From assembly GCA_903889655.1 (NCBI GenBank), contig CAISYL010000166.1, positions 1 through 36,627 on the forward strand: a stretch of 36,627 bases of DNA, written 5' to 3'. The stretch comes from an uncultured Alphaproteobacteria bacterium. GTDB lineage: Bacteria > Pseudomonadota > Alphaproteobacteria > Parvibaculales > Parvibaculaceae. The notes under the pieces were generated by a model. It was not told where the DNA came from. It saw nothing but the letters and a program-made list of their open reading frames with translations, and made no database searches. Shown piece after piece: positions 3,971 to 27,478 of this stretch. How positions within the stretch are numbered: position 1 is the stretch's first letter; every line of letters begins with the position of its first letter. The translations under genes and the position numbers were made by a program.

Positions 3971-4486
3971 GTGGCGGTCAGGAAAAAACTGAAAGAGCCC
4001 GACTGGGTGGCGATCCGCGCGGCCTATGAAGATGTGGATGTGCCGCTCAACGAGACGGCGGAGAAGGCCGGCGTCAACCGGCAATCGCTGATCGCGCGGG
4101 CGACGCGGGAAGGCTGGCGGCCGCGGACGCCGCCGCCGAAGGCGCCGGCGCCTTCTGCGGAGTTGACGGGAGCGGCGATCAAGCCGTCGAGCCTTGCGAC
4201 GCGGCTGAAGCGGCTGATCGCCCGCGAGATCGAGACGATCGAGGGCGAAAGCGCGAAAAAGCGCGACGCGATGCAGAAGGAGCGCGATGCAAGGCGGCTG
4301 TCGTCGCTGGTGCGCTCGCTCGAAAAGCTGAACGACATCAAGGCGGCGGCGAAGGCAAAGCCCGGCAGGAAGAAAGAGGAGGATGGCGATGAGCTCAGAA
4401 CGGAGCTTCAGCGCCGCCTCGCTCGCCTCGTTGCCGGCGGCGACGAGGGCGGCGTTTCTGGCGAGCCTCGCGCCACGGGAAATTGA
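3971..4486 (+). CDS. GTA g1-like / small terminase-like DNA-binding protein
   Basis: 171 residues from the GTG at 3971, preceded by GGGAGGGG five to six bases upstream; an in-frame ATG at 3953 lies inside the repeat and is less likely. Residues 10-50 read as a helix-turn-helix (WVAIRAAYEDVDVPLNETA, then AEKAGVNRQSLIARATREGW), as in phage small terminase and MerR/resolvase-like recognition domains. The middle (about 75-130) is a charged helical region with Lys/Glu/Arg-rich heptads, likely for oligomerisation. Family knowledge: the first gene of alphaproteobacterial GTA clusters encodes a small DNA-packaging factor partnered with the large terminase. The 3' end overlaps the terminase gene by about 100 bases in another frame, consistent with translational coupling. 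Confidence 0.75.
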   Translation: MAVRKKLKEPDWVAIRAAYEDVDVPLNETAEKAGVNRQSLIARATREGWRPRTPPPKAPAPSAELTGAAIKPSSLATRLKRLIAREIETIEGESAKKRDAMQKERDARRLSSLVRSLEKLNDIKAAAKAKPGRKKEEDGDELRTELQRRLARLVAGGDEGGVSGEPRATGN

Positions 4487-23600: not shown

Positions 23601-24588
23601 CCTTGCAAGTCCGCGTCGCGCGCGGGCGGCGGCGATGGCGGCGAGCTATGGCGTGCCGCTGGCGGTGTTTCTCGACCTGCCGCTGCTCAGCGGCGCGGAG
23701 ACGCCTTATGCGCCGCGCATCGCGGTGGCGGCCGATCCTTGGCCGGGCGGCGTCGCGCTGTGGAAGAGCGCGGGCGCAGGCTTCGCGCTCGACCGCGTGG
23801 TGGCGCGGCAGGCGACCATCGGACGGACGGCGAGCGATTTCGGCGCGGGCGTCGCGTCGCGCTGGGACGAGGCGCAGGTGTTGACGGTGATGCTCGCCTC
23901 GGGCGCCTTGTCCTCGGCGACGGAGGCCGCCGTGCTGGCGGGCGCCAATGTCGCGGCGCTCGAAACGCCGGAGGGCGACTGGGAGGTGATCCAGTTCCGC
24001 GAGGCGCTGCTCGTCGCGCCCGGTACCTACGAGCTTCGCGGATTGCTGCGCGGGCAGGCGGGAACGGAGGCGGCGATGCGAAGGCCGCTGGCGGCCGGCG
24101 CGCGCTTCGTGCTGATCGACGGGGCGGTGAGCGAGATCGGCCTCGGCGACGCAGAGCGGGGATTGCCGCGCATCTGGGCCTATGGGCCGCAATCGAAACC
24201 CATCGACGACGAGAGTTATGCGCGGGAGACGCGGGTTTTTCAGGGCGTCGGCCTGCGGCCTTTGTCGCCGGTGCATCCGCGCGGGCTTCGGGGAGCGGGC
24301 GGCGACATTCAGCTCAGCTGGGTCCGGCGGACGCGGATCGGCGGCGACGGCTGGGAGGGAACGGATGTGCCGCTCGGCGAAGAGGAGGAACGCTATGCGC
24401 TCGACATTCTGAGCGGCGGCGTCGCGGTGCGCTCGTTCGACGTGACCGCGCCGGCCGCGAGCTATACGGCGGCGATGCAGACCGCCGATTTCGGATCTGC
24501 TTCATTTGCGACGCTCGACATCCGCGTCGCGCAGGTGAGCCGCGCATTCGGGCGCGGCACGGCAAGAGAGGCGACACTTCATGTCTGA
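20666..24588 (+). CDS. GTA TIM-barrel tail protein (g15 megatron), split by a -1 frameshift
   Basis: Large tail-tip/host-contact protein, about 1,307 residues if read through. The reading frame opens at ATG 20666 with the expected N-terminus (ATLLLSTAGSALGSALLPSG, then LSFLGATVSGAALGSAIGAG). At the GGGG run 20791-20794 the homologous frame moves by -1: AYVDQKLFGPTVANAEGPRL, then SDLQVLSSTEGAPLPRIYGR, leading into IWATHYKEHQS, which otherwise begins at GTG 20932. The rest is intact: a GTA TIM-barrel domain (about 230-570 of the second part, with FHLDPLWADANIHFVGIDLY, LSWWANAHRDRPGG and PVWFTELGCPAIDKGTNEPN), then the phage-tail domain and a C-terminal barrel. Without repair or recoding the product lacks its first ~88 residues. 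No strong Shine-Dalgarno precedes 20666. Confidence 0.88.
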
Positions 24589-25291
24589 GACTTTGCATCT
24601 GAAACTTCCCTATCTCGAAGCGGCGCAGGCGCAGAAGCATGTGACGGTGAACGAGGCATTCTCCGCGCTCGATGCGCTGGTGCAGCTTTCGGTGAAGAGC
24701 CGCGCGCTCGCCGCGCCGCCCGCGACGCCGGGCGACGGCGACCGCTACATCGTCGCGGCCTCGCCGACGGGCGCATGGGCGGGGGCGGGGGGAGAGGTTG
24801 CCGCCTTCGCCGACGGCGCGTGGTGCTTCTTCGCGCCTGAGACGGGCTGGCGCGCCTACGACGAAGGCGCCGGTGAATTCGTCGCCTATGCGGGCGGCGC
24901 ATGGGCGAAGGAACCTTCGGGCGCCAGCGTTTCGAGCCCGCATGGCGCGGCGACGACGCTCGCGATCCTCGAAGGCGACCACACGATCGCGGCGGGGAGT
25001 TACAACGACACGAGCTTCGCGATCCCCGACCGCGCCATCGTGCTCGGCGTGACGGGCCGTGTGCTGACCGCGATCACGGGCGCGACCTCGTGGAACCTCG
25101 GCGTCGCGGCGGATGCGGCGCGGTACGGCAACGGGATCGGCGTCGCGGCGGACTCGACCGTGATCGGGCCGTCGGGCACGCCCGTCACCTATTGGGGCGC
25201 GACGGCGCTCAGGGTTTCATCCGTGGGGGGAAGTTTCACCGGCGGGAAGGTGAGGTTGGCGGTGCATTATCTGGTGTTGGCGGGGGTGTGA
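24581..25291 (+). CDS. DUF2793 tail fibre-like protein
   Basis: 236 residues, start overlapping the end of g15 by eight bases. The N-terminal DUF2793 domain is clear: LHLKLPYLEAAQAQKHVTVN, EAFSALDALVQLSVKSR, then GDGDRYIVAASPTGAWAGAG and AFADGAWCFFAPETGWRAYD. The C-terminal half (about 110-236) is Gly/Thr/Ser-rich and beta-looking (GDHTIAAGSYNDTSFAIPDR, GATSWNLGVAADAARYGNG), as in fibre tips. The family is found directly after g15 in many alphaproteobacterial GTA clusters and is presumed to contact the recipient surface. Its stop is two bases from the stop of the convergent small gene, marking the end of the structural cluster. Confidence 0.88.
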   Translation: MSETLHLKLPYLEAAQAQKHVTVNEAFSALDALVQLSVKSRALAAPPATPGDGDRYIVAASPTGAWAGAGGEVAAFADGAWCFFAPETGWRAYDEGAGEFVAYAGGAWAKEPSGASVSSPHGAATTLAILEGDHTIAAGSYNDTSFAIPDRAIVLGVTGRVLTAITGATSWNLGVAADAARYGNGIGVAADSTVIGPSGTPVTYWGATALRVSSVGGSFTGGKVRLAVHYLVLAGV

Positions 25292-26557: not shown

Positions 26558-26611
26558 AATTCATTTCATCGCGGCTTGTCATTAGCGCTTGTCGGCGGAA
26601 TCCTATTCTGC

Positions 26612-26640
26612 TTGACATGTTCCTGTTATGTTCCTATTCT
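26612..26640 (+). promoter_or_regulatory. near-consensus sigma70 promoter with LexA box in its spacer
   Basis: TTGACA (26612-26617), exactly 17 bases, then TATTCT (26635-26640). Within the spacer is GTTC-CTGTTAT-GTTC (26619-26633), the GTTC-N7-GTTC operator of alphaproteobacterial LexA. A second dyad, TTCCTA-TTC-TAGGAA (26631-26645), overlaps the -10. LexA binding here would block RNA polymerase directly, so the hydrolase gene 32 bases downstream should be released by DNA damage. The promoter and box are read directly; LexA control is inference from the established motif. Confidence 0.75.
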
Positions 26641-26671
26641 AGGAATATAGTCATAAACACCGGAAATCATC

Positions 26672-27172
26672 ATGACCGAGTTGAAGAACCGCGTTGCGCG
26701 GGCGGGAGGGCTTTGTCCGGTTTCAGCGGTGCCGGATCTCGCCGCCGTGGTGAGCGTCGCGCTGGCGGTGGCCGCGCGGGCGGGGCGGGAGAGCCGCGAG
26801 GCGCAGGTGGCCGTCGCGGCGGCGATCCTCAACTGCATGAAAATGCGGCATCGGCATTGTCCGGCGCTGGACAGCGGCGCGGGATGCACGCGGGCCGTGT
26901 GGCGCGATGCGGAGGAGGCGTCGGCGCGCGCCGATTTCGGCGACCGGGATTTCGTGCGCGCGCTCGCCATCGTCTGCGAGCTCATCGCCGGCGAGATCGA
27001 CGATCCGACGGACGGCGCGACGCATTGGCATGCGCATACGGAGGCGCCCGGCTGGGCGCGGCATGCGCGGCCGAGCGCGCTGATCGGACCGAATTTCTAC
27101 TACCGGTTCGGCAATCAAGGGACGGCGGGAGAAGAAGGGACGGTATGGGGAGAAGAACAAGGCCGCGCGTGA
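26672..27172 (+). CDS. SleB-type cell-wall hydrolase, probable SOS-controlled endolysin
   Basis: 166 residues. The catalytic domain matches the cell wall hydrolase SleB/Hydrolase_2 family: AGRESREAQVAVAAAILNCM, then CPALDSGAGCTRAVWRDAEE, DFGDRDFVRALAIVCELIAG, EIDDPTDGATHWHAHTEAPG and PSALIGPNFYYRF. The family glutamate (RESREAQ), the DPT.GATHWH motif and the C-terminal 'IG...FYR' are all present. There is no signal peptide, as expected for an endolysin released through a holin. It is followed after 24 bases by a phage-type membrane protein. GGAA precedes the ATG at a fair distance. Weak ribosome binding plus LexA control would keep basal levels low. Confidence 0.8.
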   Translation: MTELKNRVARAGGLCPVSAVPDLAAVVSVALAVAARAGRESREAQVAVAAAILNCMKMRHRHCPALDSGAGCTRAVWRDAEEASARADFGDRDFVRALAIVCELIAGEIDDPTDGATHWHAHTEAPGWARHARPSALIGPNFYYRFGNQGTAGEEGTVWGEEQGRA

Positions 27173-27196
27173 GGCGCGGAGGAAAGGGAGAAACAG

Positions 27197-27478
27197 ATGT
27201 TCGAGTTGACGGCGACGGCAAGCCTTGCCGCAAAAGGCATCACGCCCGCGGATTTTATGGAATGGCTCAGGCTGGCGCTGAGCCTTGTCGGCGCCGCATC
27301 GGCGATTGCGGCGCTGACGCCCACGCCGAGGGATGACGGGCTCGCCGGCAGGCTCTATAAGTTGATCGATGTCCTCGCGCTCAATATCGGCTTTGCGAAG
27401 GACAGGGCCTGCCGCGCGCCGCGCGGAACCGTCCGCGAACTGCCACGACCGCGCTCGCCGCACGAGCGCTCCGATTGA
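27197..27478 (+). CDS. small phage-type membrane protein cotranscribed with the hydrolase
   Basis: 93 residues with GGAG six bases before the ATG. One hydrophobic helix at about 22-42 (WLRLALSLVGAASAIAALTP) is followed by TPRDDGLAGRLYKLIDVLAL and NIGFAKDR, a 'LTPTP.DD.....LYKLIDLLALN.GKAK' pattern common in small phage proteins next to lysis genes. The C-terminal tail is basic and proline-rich. It may help release the hydrolase (holin- or pinholin-like), but that is inference; the position downstream of the SOS-type promoter makes it part of the same response. Confidence 0.65.
   Translation: MFELTATASLAAKGITPADFMEWLRLALSLVGAASAIAALTPTPRDDGLAGRLYKLIDVLALNIGFAKDRACRAPRGTVRELPRPRSPHERSD

Follow-up and report, generated by a model that had tools for sequence, protein, structure and literature searches.

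The closest described systems are the gene transfer agents (GTAs, domesticated viruses that carry host DNA from cell to cell) of Rhodobacter capsulatus (RcGTA), Caulobacter crescentus (CcGTA) and Dinoroseobacter shibae (DsGTA). According to the parts of these reports that were available, RcGTA depends on LexA, whose effect seems to run through CckA (PMC9638019), the R. capsulatus endolysin is activated by GafA with CtrA (PMC6363796), and mitomycin C raised gafA only about two-fold (PMC9143464). Caulobacter is described as having no holin-endolysin homologue and as lysing through LypABC (PMC13236601, available text); its GTAs are reported to promote survival and DNA repair, and RogA is reported to bind a region at gafYZ with two inverted repeats GGAA-N4-TTCC (PMC9632790, available text). 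In D. shibae, a LexA site has been predicted in silico at the GTA cluster, at Dshi_2167/2168 (PMC6473078, available text). In the open-licence GTA literature, as far as its text was available, we did not find a LexA box described for gafA/gafYZ or for any GTA lysis gene. In SOS-inducible prophages and phage-tail bacteriocins, DNA damage triggers both the particle genes and lysis.

The locus described here lies in a window of 36,627 nt (the whole stretch of DNA analysed) from a Parvibaculum-like genome. An RcGTA-type structural cluster with unrelated genes interspersed occupies positions 4383–25291 of the plus strand; Pfam profiles identified the terminase, portal, prohead protease, capsid, gp13-like hub and DUF2793 genes, while NlpC/P60-like, gp14/gp15-like and short tape-measure-like genes were assigned by eye from the ORFs. 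Inside the cluster, the segment 16105–16830 encodes two small proteins, one of 124 aa whose N-terminus is hydrophobic (phrog_17576) and one of 98 aa in which a lipobox-like segment was recognized by eye (phrog_26778); these are possible alternative holin or spanin genes. The last gene of the cluster encodes the DUF2793 protein (24581–25291), and other ORFs lie between it and a promoter made up of the -35 hexamer TTGACA (26612–26617) and the -10 hexamer TATTCT (26635–26640), both on the plus strand. The 17-nt spacer of this promoter holds the LexA box GTTCCTGTTATGTTC (GTTC-N7-GTTC, 26619–26633, plus strand), and a gap of 38 nt separates the box from the start of a gene for a 166-aa SleB-fold (Hydrolase_2-like) protein (26672–27172, plus strand), which has no N-terminal signal by eye. 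A second gene (27197–27478, plus strand) encodes a protein of 93 aa in which a single hydrophobic segment was recognized by eye and whose best match is phrog_9685, a family of unknown function. The coordinates of both ORFs were confirmed. A sequence-only reading of this DNA had placed GTTC-N7-GTTC in the spacer of what it took for the best promoter in the window.

That ranking of the promoter was borne out by a scan of the whole window (-35 with at most one mismatch, spacing of 16–18), in which 26612–26640 was the sole TTGACA/TATAAT pair with no more than 2 of 12 mismatches. Taken alone, the promoter pattern was not above chance between 17000 and 36627 (one found, 2.2 expected in shuffles), and neither was the bare GTTC-N7-GTTC pattern in the whole window (two matches, 1.04 expected). 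The other match (27426–27440, minus strand) was rejected as a regulatory site and is probably due to chance, given that it lies inside the 93-aa ORF and scores only 6.6. A short repeat, TCCTATTCT, is present twice, 31 nt apart, at 26601–26609 (5' of the -35 hexamer) and at 26632–26640 (over the -10 hexamer).

The genome encodes LexA itself (TIGR00498, 170.3 bits against a cut-off of 110.95). The sequence-only reading had called for a genome-wide comparison of the pattern with known SOS genes, and this comparison came out in its favour: GTTC-N7-GTTC adjoins recA, lexA and yifB, identified with NCBIfam/Pfam profiles above the family cut-offs, as well as a uvrA fragment, an ImuA-like gene and a Pol IV/ImuB-like gene, which fall below the whole-length family cut-offs. 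A PWM was built from these six SOS-type boxes of the same genome, whose leave-one-out scores range from 12.0 (recA, the lowest) to 23.9. On this scale, the window box (23.6) and the box at gafYZ described below (22.4) score like the SOS-gene boxes of the same genome. The next-best site in the window reaches 11.0, which is only just under the weakest SOS box, since recA itself scores 12.0. Over the whole genome, GTTC-N7-GTTC has 114 matches, compared with 62 for the reversed pattern, and the stricter GTTC-N5-WT-GTTC has 20, compared with 4. We inspected the neighbouring genes in 24 stretches around GTTC-N7-GTTC matches; many of these matches are intragenic or near genes with no obvious connection to the SOS response, and the pattern therefore does not always mark a LexA site. 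A strong box (score 25.0; L031:1219–1233) was also seen directly 5' of a PA0069-family radical SAM gene, which is not known as a classical SOS gene. The operator in the window overlaps its promoter, as in the LexA/SOS regulon of Alphaproteobacteria, and we consider it likely, judging from the sequence, that 26612–26640 is a LexA-repressed sigma-70 promoter and one node of a two-node SOS circuit acting on the Parvibaculum GTA.

The SleB-fold protein has a match in 34 of the 61 genomes searched, its own included. Conservation of the box was assessed in 24 GTA-linked loci, comprising 18 from the same genus, two from genus g4 and four from the sister genus g3. Not shown to be GTA-linked and therefore left out were L024, L027, L028, L029 and L030, the second matches of G001, G003, G005 and G035 and the matches of G023, G040, G047 and G055; L007 of G005 was left out because its contig ends before the promoter. 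By tblastn, DUF2793 or gp15 lies upstream of the gene in 23 of the 24 loci, the exception being L026. The box proved to be conserved upstream of orthologues, as the sequence-only reading required, within the genus and in g4 but not in g3. An exact box precedes 16 of the 18 same-genus orthologues with readable upstream sequence (300 dinucleotide shuffles gave 0.21 on average and never more than 2; related genomes in these counts are not independent events) and both loci of g4, while in g3 the gene is kept in 4/4 loci and the box was found in 0/4. When half-site spacings from 3 to 12 were compared, only 7 was enriched, with 16/18 loci against 0–4 for the other nine spacings. The seven central bases vary between loci, the half-sites being constant by the selection of exact matches. 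The box is in reverse orientation in L002. The other 15 same-genus loci were aligned in direct orientation, and all of them have TTGAC two or three bases 5' of the box; it was not found just before the box in the two loci of g4.

One of the two same-genus exceptions, G009, carries TTGACG-AT-GTTC-N7-GTTC directly behind DUF2793 (L064:6005), with 2.2 kb inserted before the gene. In this genome, approximately 2.2 kb (L064:6005–8214) separates the LexA promoter from the SleB-fold gene, part of the second element described below is repeated at the far end, and the stretch is a natural disruption of the promoter. In the other exception, G018, a short gene starts directly behind DUF2793, and there is no box. 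In G006, G017 and G027, a search behind the cluster did not find the SleB-fold gene, and no box is present there. G006 (L138) is the closest relative by terminase (86% identity); both the SleB-fold gene and the 93-aa gene went undetected behind its cluster, and its gafYZ box is kept. Among 18 IMG/VR loci, three have the box 98–299 nt 5' of the match, and five others have a match elsewhere; contigs with such GTA ends and a box before the SleB-fold gene (L142, L154 and L155) are listed as viral in IMG/VR. A GC-centred GTTC-N7-GTTC (GTTCATC-N2-GGGTTC) also recurs approximately 4.6–5.2 kb downstream, presumably within coding sequence, in 12/12 named loci (those labelled Parvibaculum, Rhodobiaceae or Alphaproteobacteria), and recurrence by itself is therefore not proof of a LexA site.

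A protein of the GTA activator family DUF6456 (PF20057) is encoded elsewhere in the window's genome (C48:51324–51737); the same profile search also gives matches in Caulobacter, used as a control. The gene adjoining it upstream encodes a DnaA-HTH protein (PF08299), which gives the gafY–gafZ arrangement seen in Caulobacter. A LexA box, GTTCTCGTAATGTTC (score 22.4), lies between gafYZ and a divergent XRE-type gene and ends 37 nt before the gafY start. It was detected in 13 of the 23 same-genus loci with readable upstream sequence (shuffles: mean 0.26, maximum 2) and was missing in the remaining 10; this count excludes G005, which gave no match, and G008, G015 and G023, whose loci are truncated at contig ends. 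Both loci of g4 have the box. No gafYZ box was found in four loci of g3, nor a leader box in three loci of genera g2 and g5 (L196–L198, of which L197 is cut and L196 has a match downstream). Outside the window's family, 2 of the 26 gafZ-type loci examined, which are a sample, have a leader box, both in one genus of another family; the match in L219 lies further downstream and not in the leader. The two inputs are distributed unevenly across the genus: nine genomes have both boxes (G000, G001, G003, G004, G007, G011, G013, G014, with boxes at L006 and L164, and G022), five in which both places are readable have only the box at the lysis-like gene (G010, G012, G016, G024 and G025), and four have only that at gafYZ (G006, G018, G019 and G020). 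G009 combines its displaced box at the lysis-like gene with none at gafYZ, and G002, G017, G021 and G026, the last two fragmented, have no box at either place and no detected GTA-linked SleB-fold gene.

The gafYZ leaders show further recurring features. Two that have no LexA box (L165 and L189) carry AGAGGAATTTATTCCTCT, a GGAA-N4-TTCC sequence, as if one operator had replaced the other. Leaders among L160–L204 share TTATCCCC, which we take to be DnaA-box-like, and between gafYZ and the divergent XRE gene there is a recurring palindrome, TTACG-N5-CGTAA; the two could be sites for GafY and the XRE protein.

LexA control of the structural leader was also considered and rejected. A terminase homologue is present in 44 of the 61 genomes searched, including the window's own, where no exact LexA box lies within 1.5 kb upstream of the terminase. 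Among the 30 terminase loci listed, three of which are cut to 281–793 nt of upstream sequence by contig ends, there were only three matches, GC-centred and with low scores of 6.0 and 9.6; one lies 3' of the terminase (L074), and two lie at the same site approximately 110 nt 5' of the match in genus g3 (L095 and L096).

The LexA box is followed directly, on its 3' side, by another conserved element of the approximate form GGAAT-WAA-WTCC(T). The window has a degenerate copy, GGAA-TATA-GTCA (26642–26653, plus strand), and in many relatives the element is near GGAA-N4-TTCC. With at most one mismatch, GGAA-N4-TTCC was found in the 420-nt promoter region of 18/24 loci, compared with 1–4/24 for eight control motifs or spacings; in the window (L001) and L013 the listed match lies elsewhere, and in g3 the motif shows two mismatches in three of four loci. 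Genus g3 thus retains a related element although it has no LexA box, and the idea that the element forms part of the LexA site was dropped on account of this persistence in box-less orthologues. Its assignment as a GafA or GafY site was not kept either, no GafA or GafY consensus having been found for comparison in the literature text available. Its likeness to the Caulobacter RogA repeat suggests, by analogy, RogA-type control, and the XRE gene divergent from gafYZ is a natural candidate for its binder. RogA combines an XRE-type HTH with an S24-like C-terminal domain and acts on the gafYZ promoter; of these features, the divergent XRE-type protein shows the HTH, and a profile comparison of its family with this genome's LexA gave no significant match. 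The palindrome that recurs in many gafYZ leaders, TTACG-N5-CGTAA, is a different one. In five same-genus genomes, a GGAATAAATTCC-type element, often with a second copy, stands before a gene for a secreted SNase-like nuclease, recognized by eye (L130, L114, L137, L118 and L124, around position 1501), hinting from sequence likeness that the nuclease and the GTA lysis-like gene may be under a shared regulator.

The SleB assignment is structural. An AlphaFold model of the 166-aa protein (mean pLDDT 76, pTM 0.70) had SleB catalytic domains as its top three Foldseek matches (4f55 and 4fet chains B and A; probability 1.00, E values of 0.006–0.017, none below 0.001), the next match having an E value of 1.7. 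The PF07486 profile gave 23.7 bits, under its gathering cut-off of 27, and a PDB profile search from a first, partial alignment gave only a weak unrelated match. In canonical SleB members, the catalytic Glu is presumably the first E of the EARGE motif; the corresponding residue is Arg36 in the window protein. Among the 17 other GTA-linked rows of alignment A2, only L002 has Glu, and the remaining 16 carry a non-acidic residue (A, L, V, I, M, F, Y or W). In alignment A1, L004 has Glu and L003 may have it, by eye, and the canonical SleB proteins L024 and L027 keep it in A2. A C-terminal motif with His and Trp residues, DPTxGATxFHxHTExPxWA, is strongly kept, which suggests that selection acts on the gene. 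The 93-aa protein is a candidate holin-like protein; a homologue adjoins the SleB-fold gene in 17 GTA-linked loci out of 24 and was not found in the other seven. The earlier description of a signal-less SleB-type wall hydrolase thus holds for the predicted fold and the missing signal, while the sub-threshold Pfam score and Arg36 count against an active hydrolase; "endolysin" is a hypothetical name, and hydrolase activity is putative.

Given that the canonical catalytic Glu is absent in most orthologues, a release function is itself doubtful. The SleB-fold protein could be a catalytically dead protein that binds the wall or is associated with the particle, in which case the LexA box would be real and its product not a lysis enzyme. 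The Arg in the window and the non-acidic residues of the other GTA-linked rows speak for this, and we regard it as a serious possibility, although we lean towards a retained wall function. This is suggested by the kept fold, by the tight regulation and by the small membrane protein with which the gene is often paired; a different acidic residue, E40 or E43, could also serve in catalysis. It is also conceivable that the box controls nothing beyond the SleB-fold gene and its small partner, as a stand-alone SOS cell-death unit or the lysis unit of a prophage relic that has the GTA as a neighbour by chance. The pair does have its own promoter, the terminase loci lack a good box, and five genomes have the box at the lysis-like gene without one at gafYZ; yet the gene stands behind DUF2793 or gp15 in all but one of the GTA-linked loci, and gafYZ itself carries a box in more than half of the same-genus loci, which makes such a unit unlikely.

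It is highly improbable that an AT-rich promoter contains this degenerate 8-base pattern by accident. The bare pattern is not rare in the window, and its reversed form gives more than half as many genomic matches as the real one, but chance is contradicted by the sequence comparison: conservation in nearly all same-genus loci where about 0.2 would be expected, the specificity for one spacing, the PWM score and the second box at gafYZ.

Since boxes are found at both the activator and the lysis-like gene and the terminase loci have no good box, the SOS input appears to enter at these two points and not at the structural operon. SOS would thus probably be wired, on the evidence of these operators, to the GTA activator and the lysis-like gene together, and neither to lysis alone nor to the structural operon. 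In an undamaged cell, LexA would cover the -35/-10 spacer of the lysis-like gene promoter and the gafYZ leader, with a RogA-type repressor probably acting as a second lock. On DNA damage, RecA-driven cleavage of LexA would relieve both operators. GafYZ would in turn activate the structural cluster, itself without a good LexA box, and the SleB-fold protein and the small membrane protein would be made directly and may help particle release. As LexA appears to act on the activator and a probable release gene, gene transfer by this GTA would be damage-inducible. We somewhat favour a broader reading in which rewiring has turned a domesticated GTA into a public service induced by DNA damage, with LexA on gafYZ and on the release gene and a RogA-type operator beside the latter, so that damage would lead a subpopulation to package and release genomic DNA for use in repair by its neighbours; the two inputs would have been gained and lost independently across the genus.

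The sequence-only reading had proposed that cell lysis for this cluster is a direct SOS output, in contrast to the control of lysis in the Rhodobacter GTA. A conserved LexA-type operator does lie in a promoter at the end of the GTA cluster, but the proposal is too narrow, because the gafYZ operon carries a box too. The contrast with Rhodobacter is fair for the wiring; LexA involvement in GTAs is not new.

Like RcGTA, the present system combines a structural cluster of the same type with a gafA/gafYZ-type activator and a dedicated, here putative, lysis gene. It differs in having LexA boxes on gafYZ and on a linked lysis-like gene, whereas in RcGTA LexA appears to act through CckA. For DsGTA, the LexA site is predicted only, at the cluster, and the available text names none at gafA or at the endolysin and holin genes. 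With CcGTA it shares gafYZ as two genes; a divergent XRE-type gene lies beside gafYZ here, and the GGAA-N4-TTCC-like elements recall those described for RogA. Unlike CcGTA, for which lysis through LypABC is reported, it has a linked SleB-fold lysis-like gene, and a LexA box at gafYZ is not mentioned in the available text for Caulobacter. With a direct LexA operator at both gafYZ and the lysis-like gene, it would be possible to test directly whether damage triggers GTA release. In contrast to SOS-inducible prophages and bacteriocins, the system is a domesticated GTA in which the LexA box is placed on the activator and not on the structural operon.
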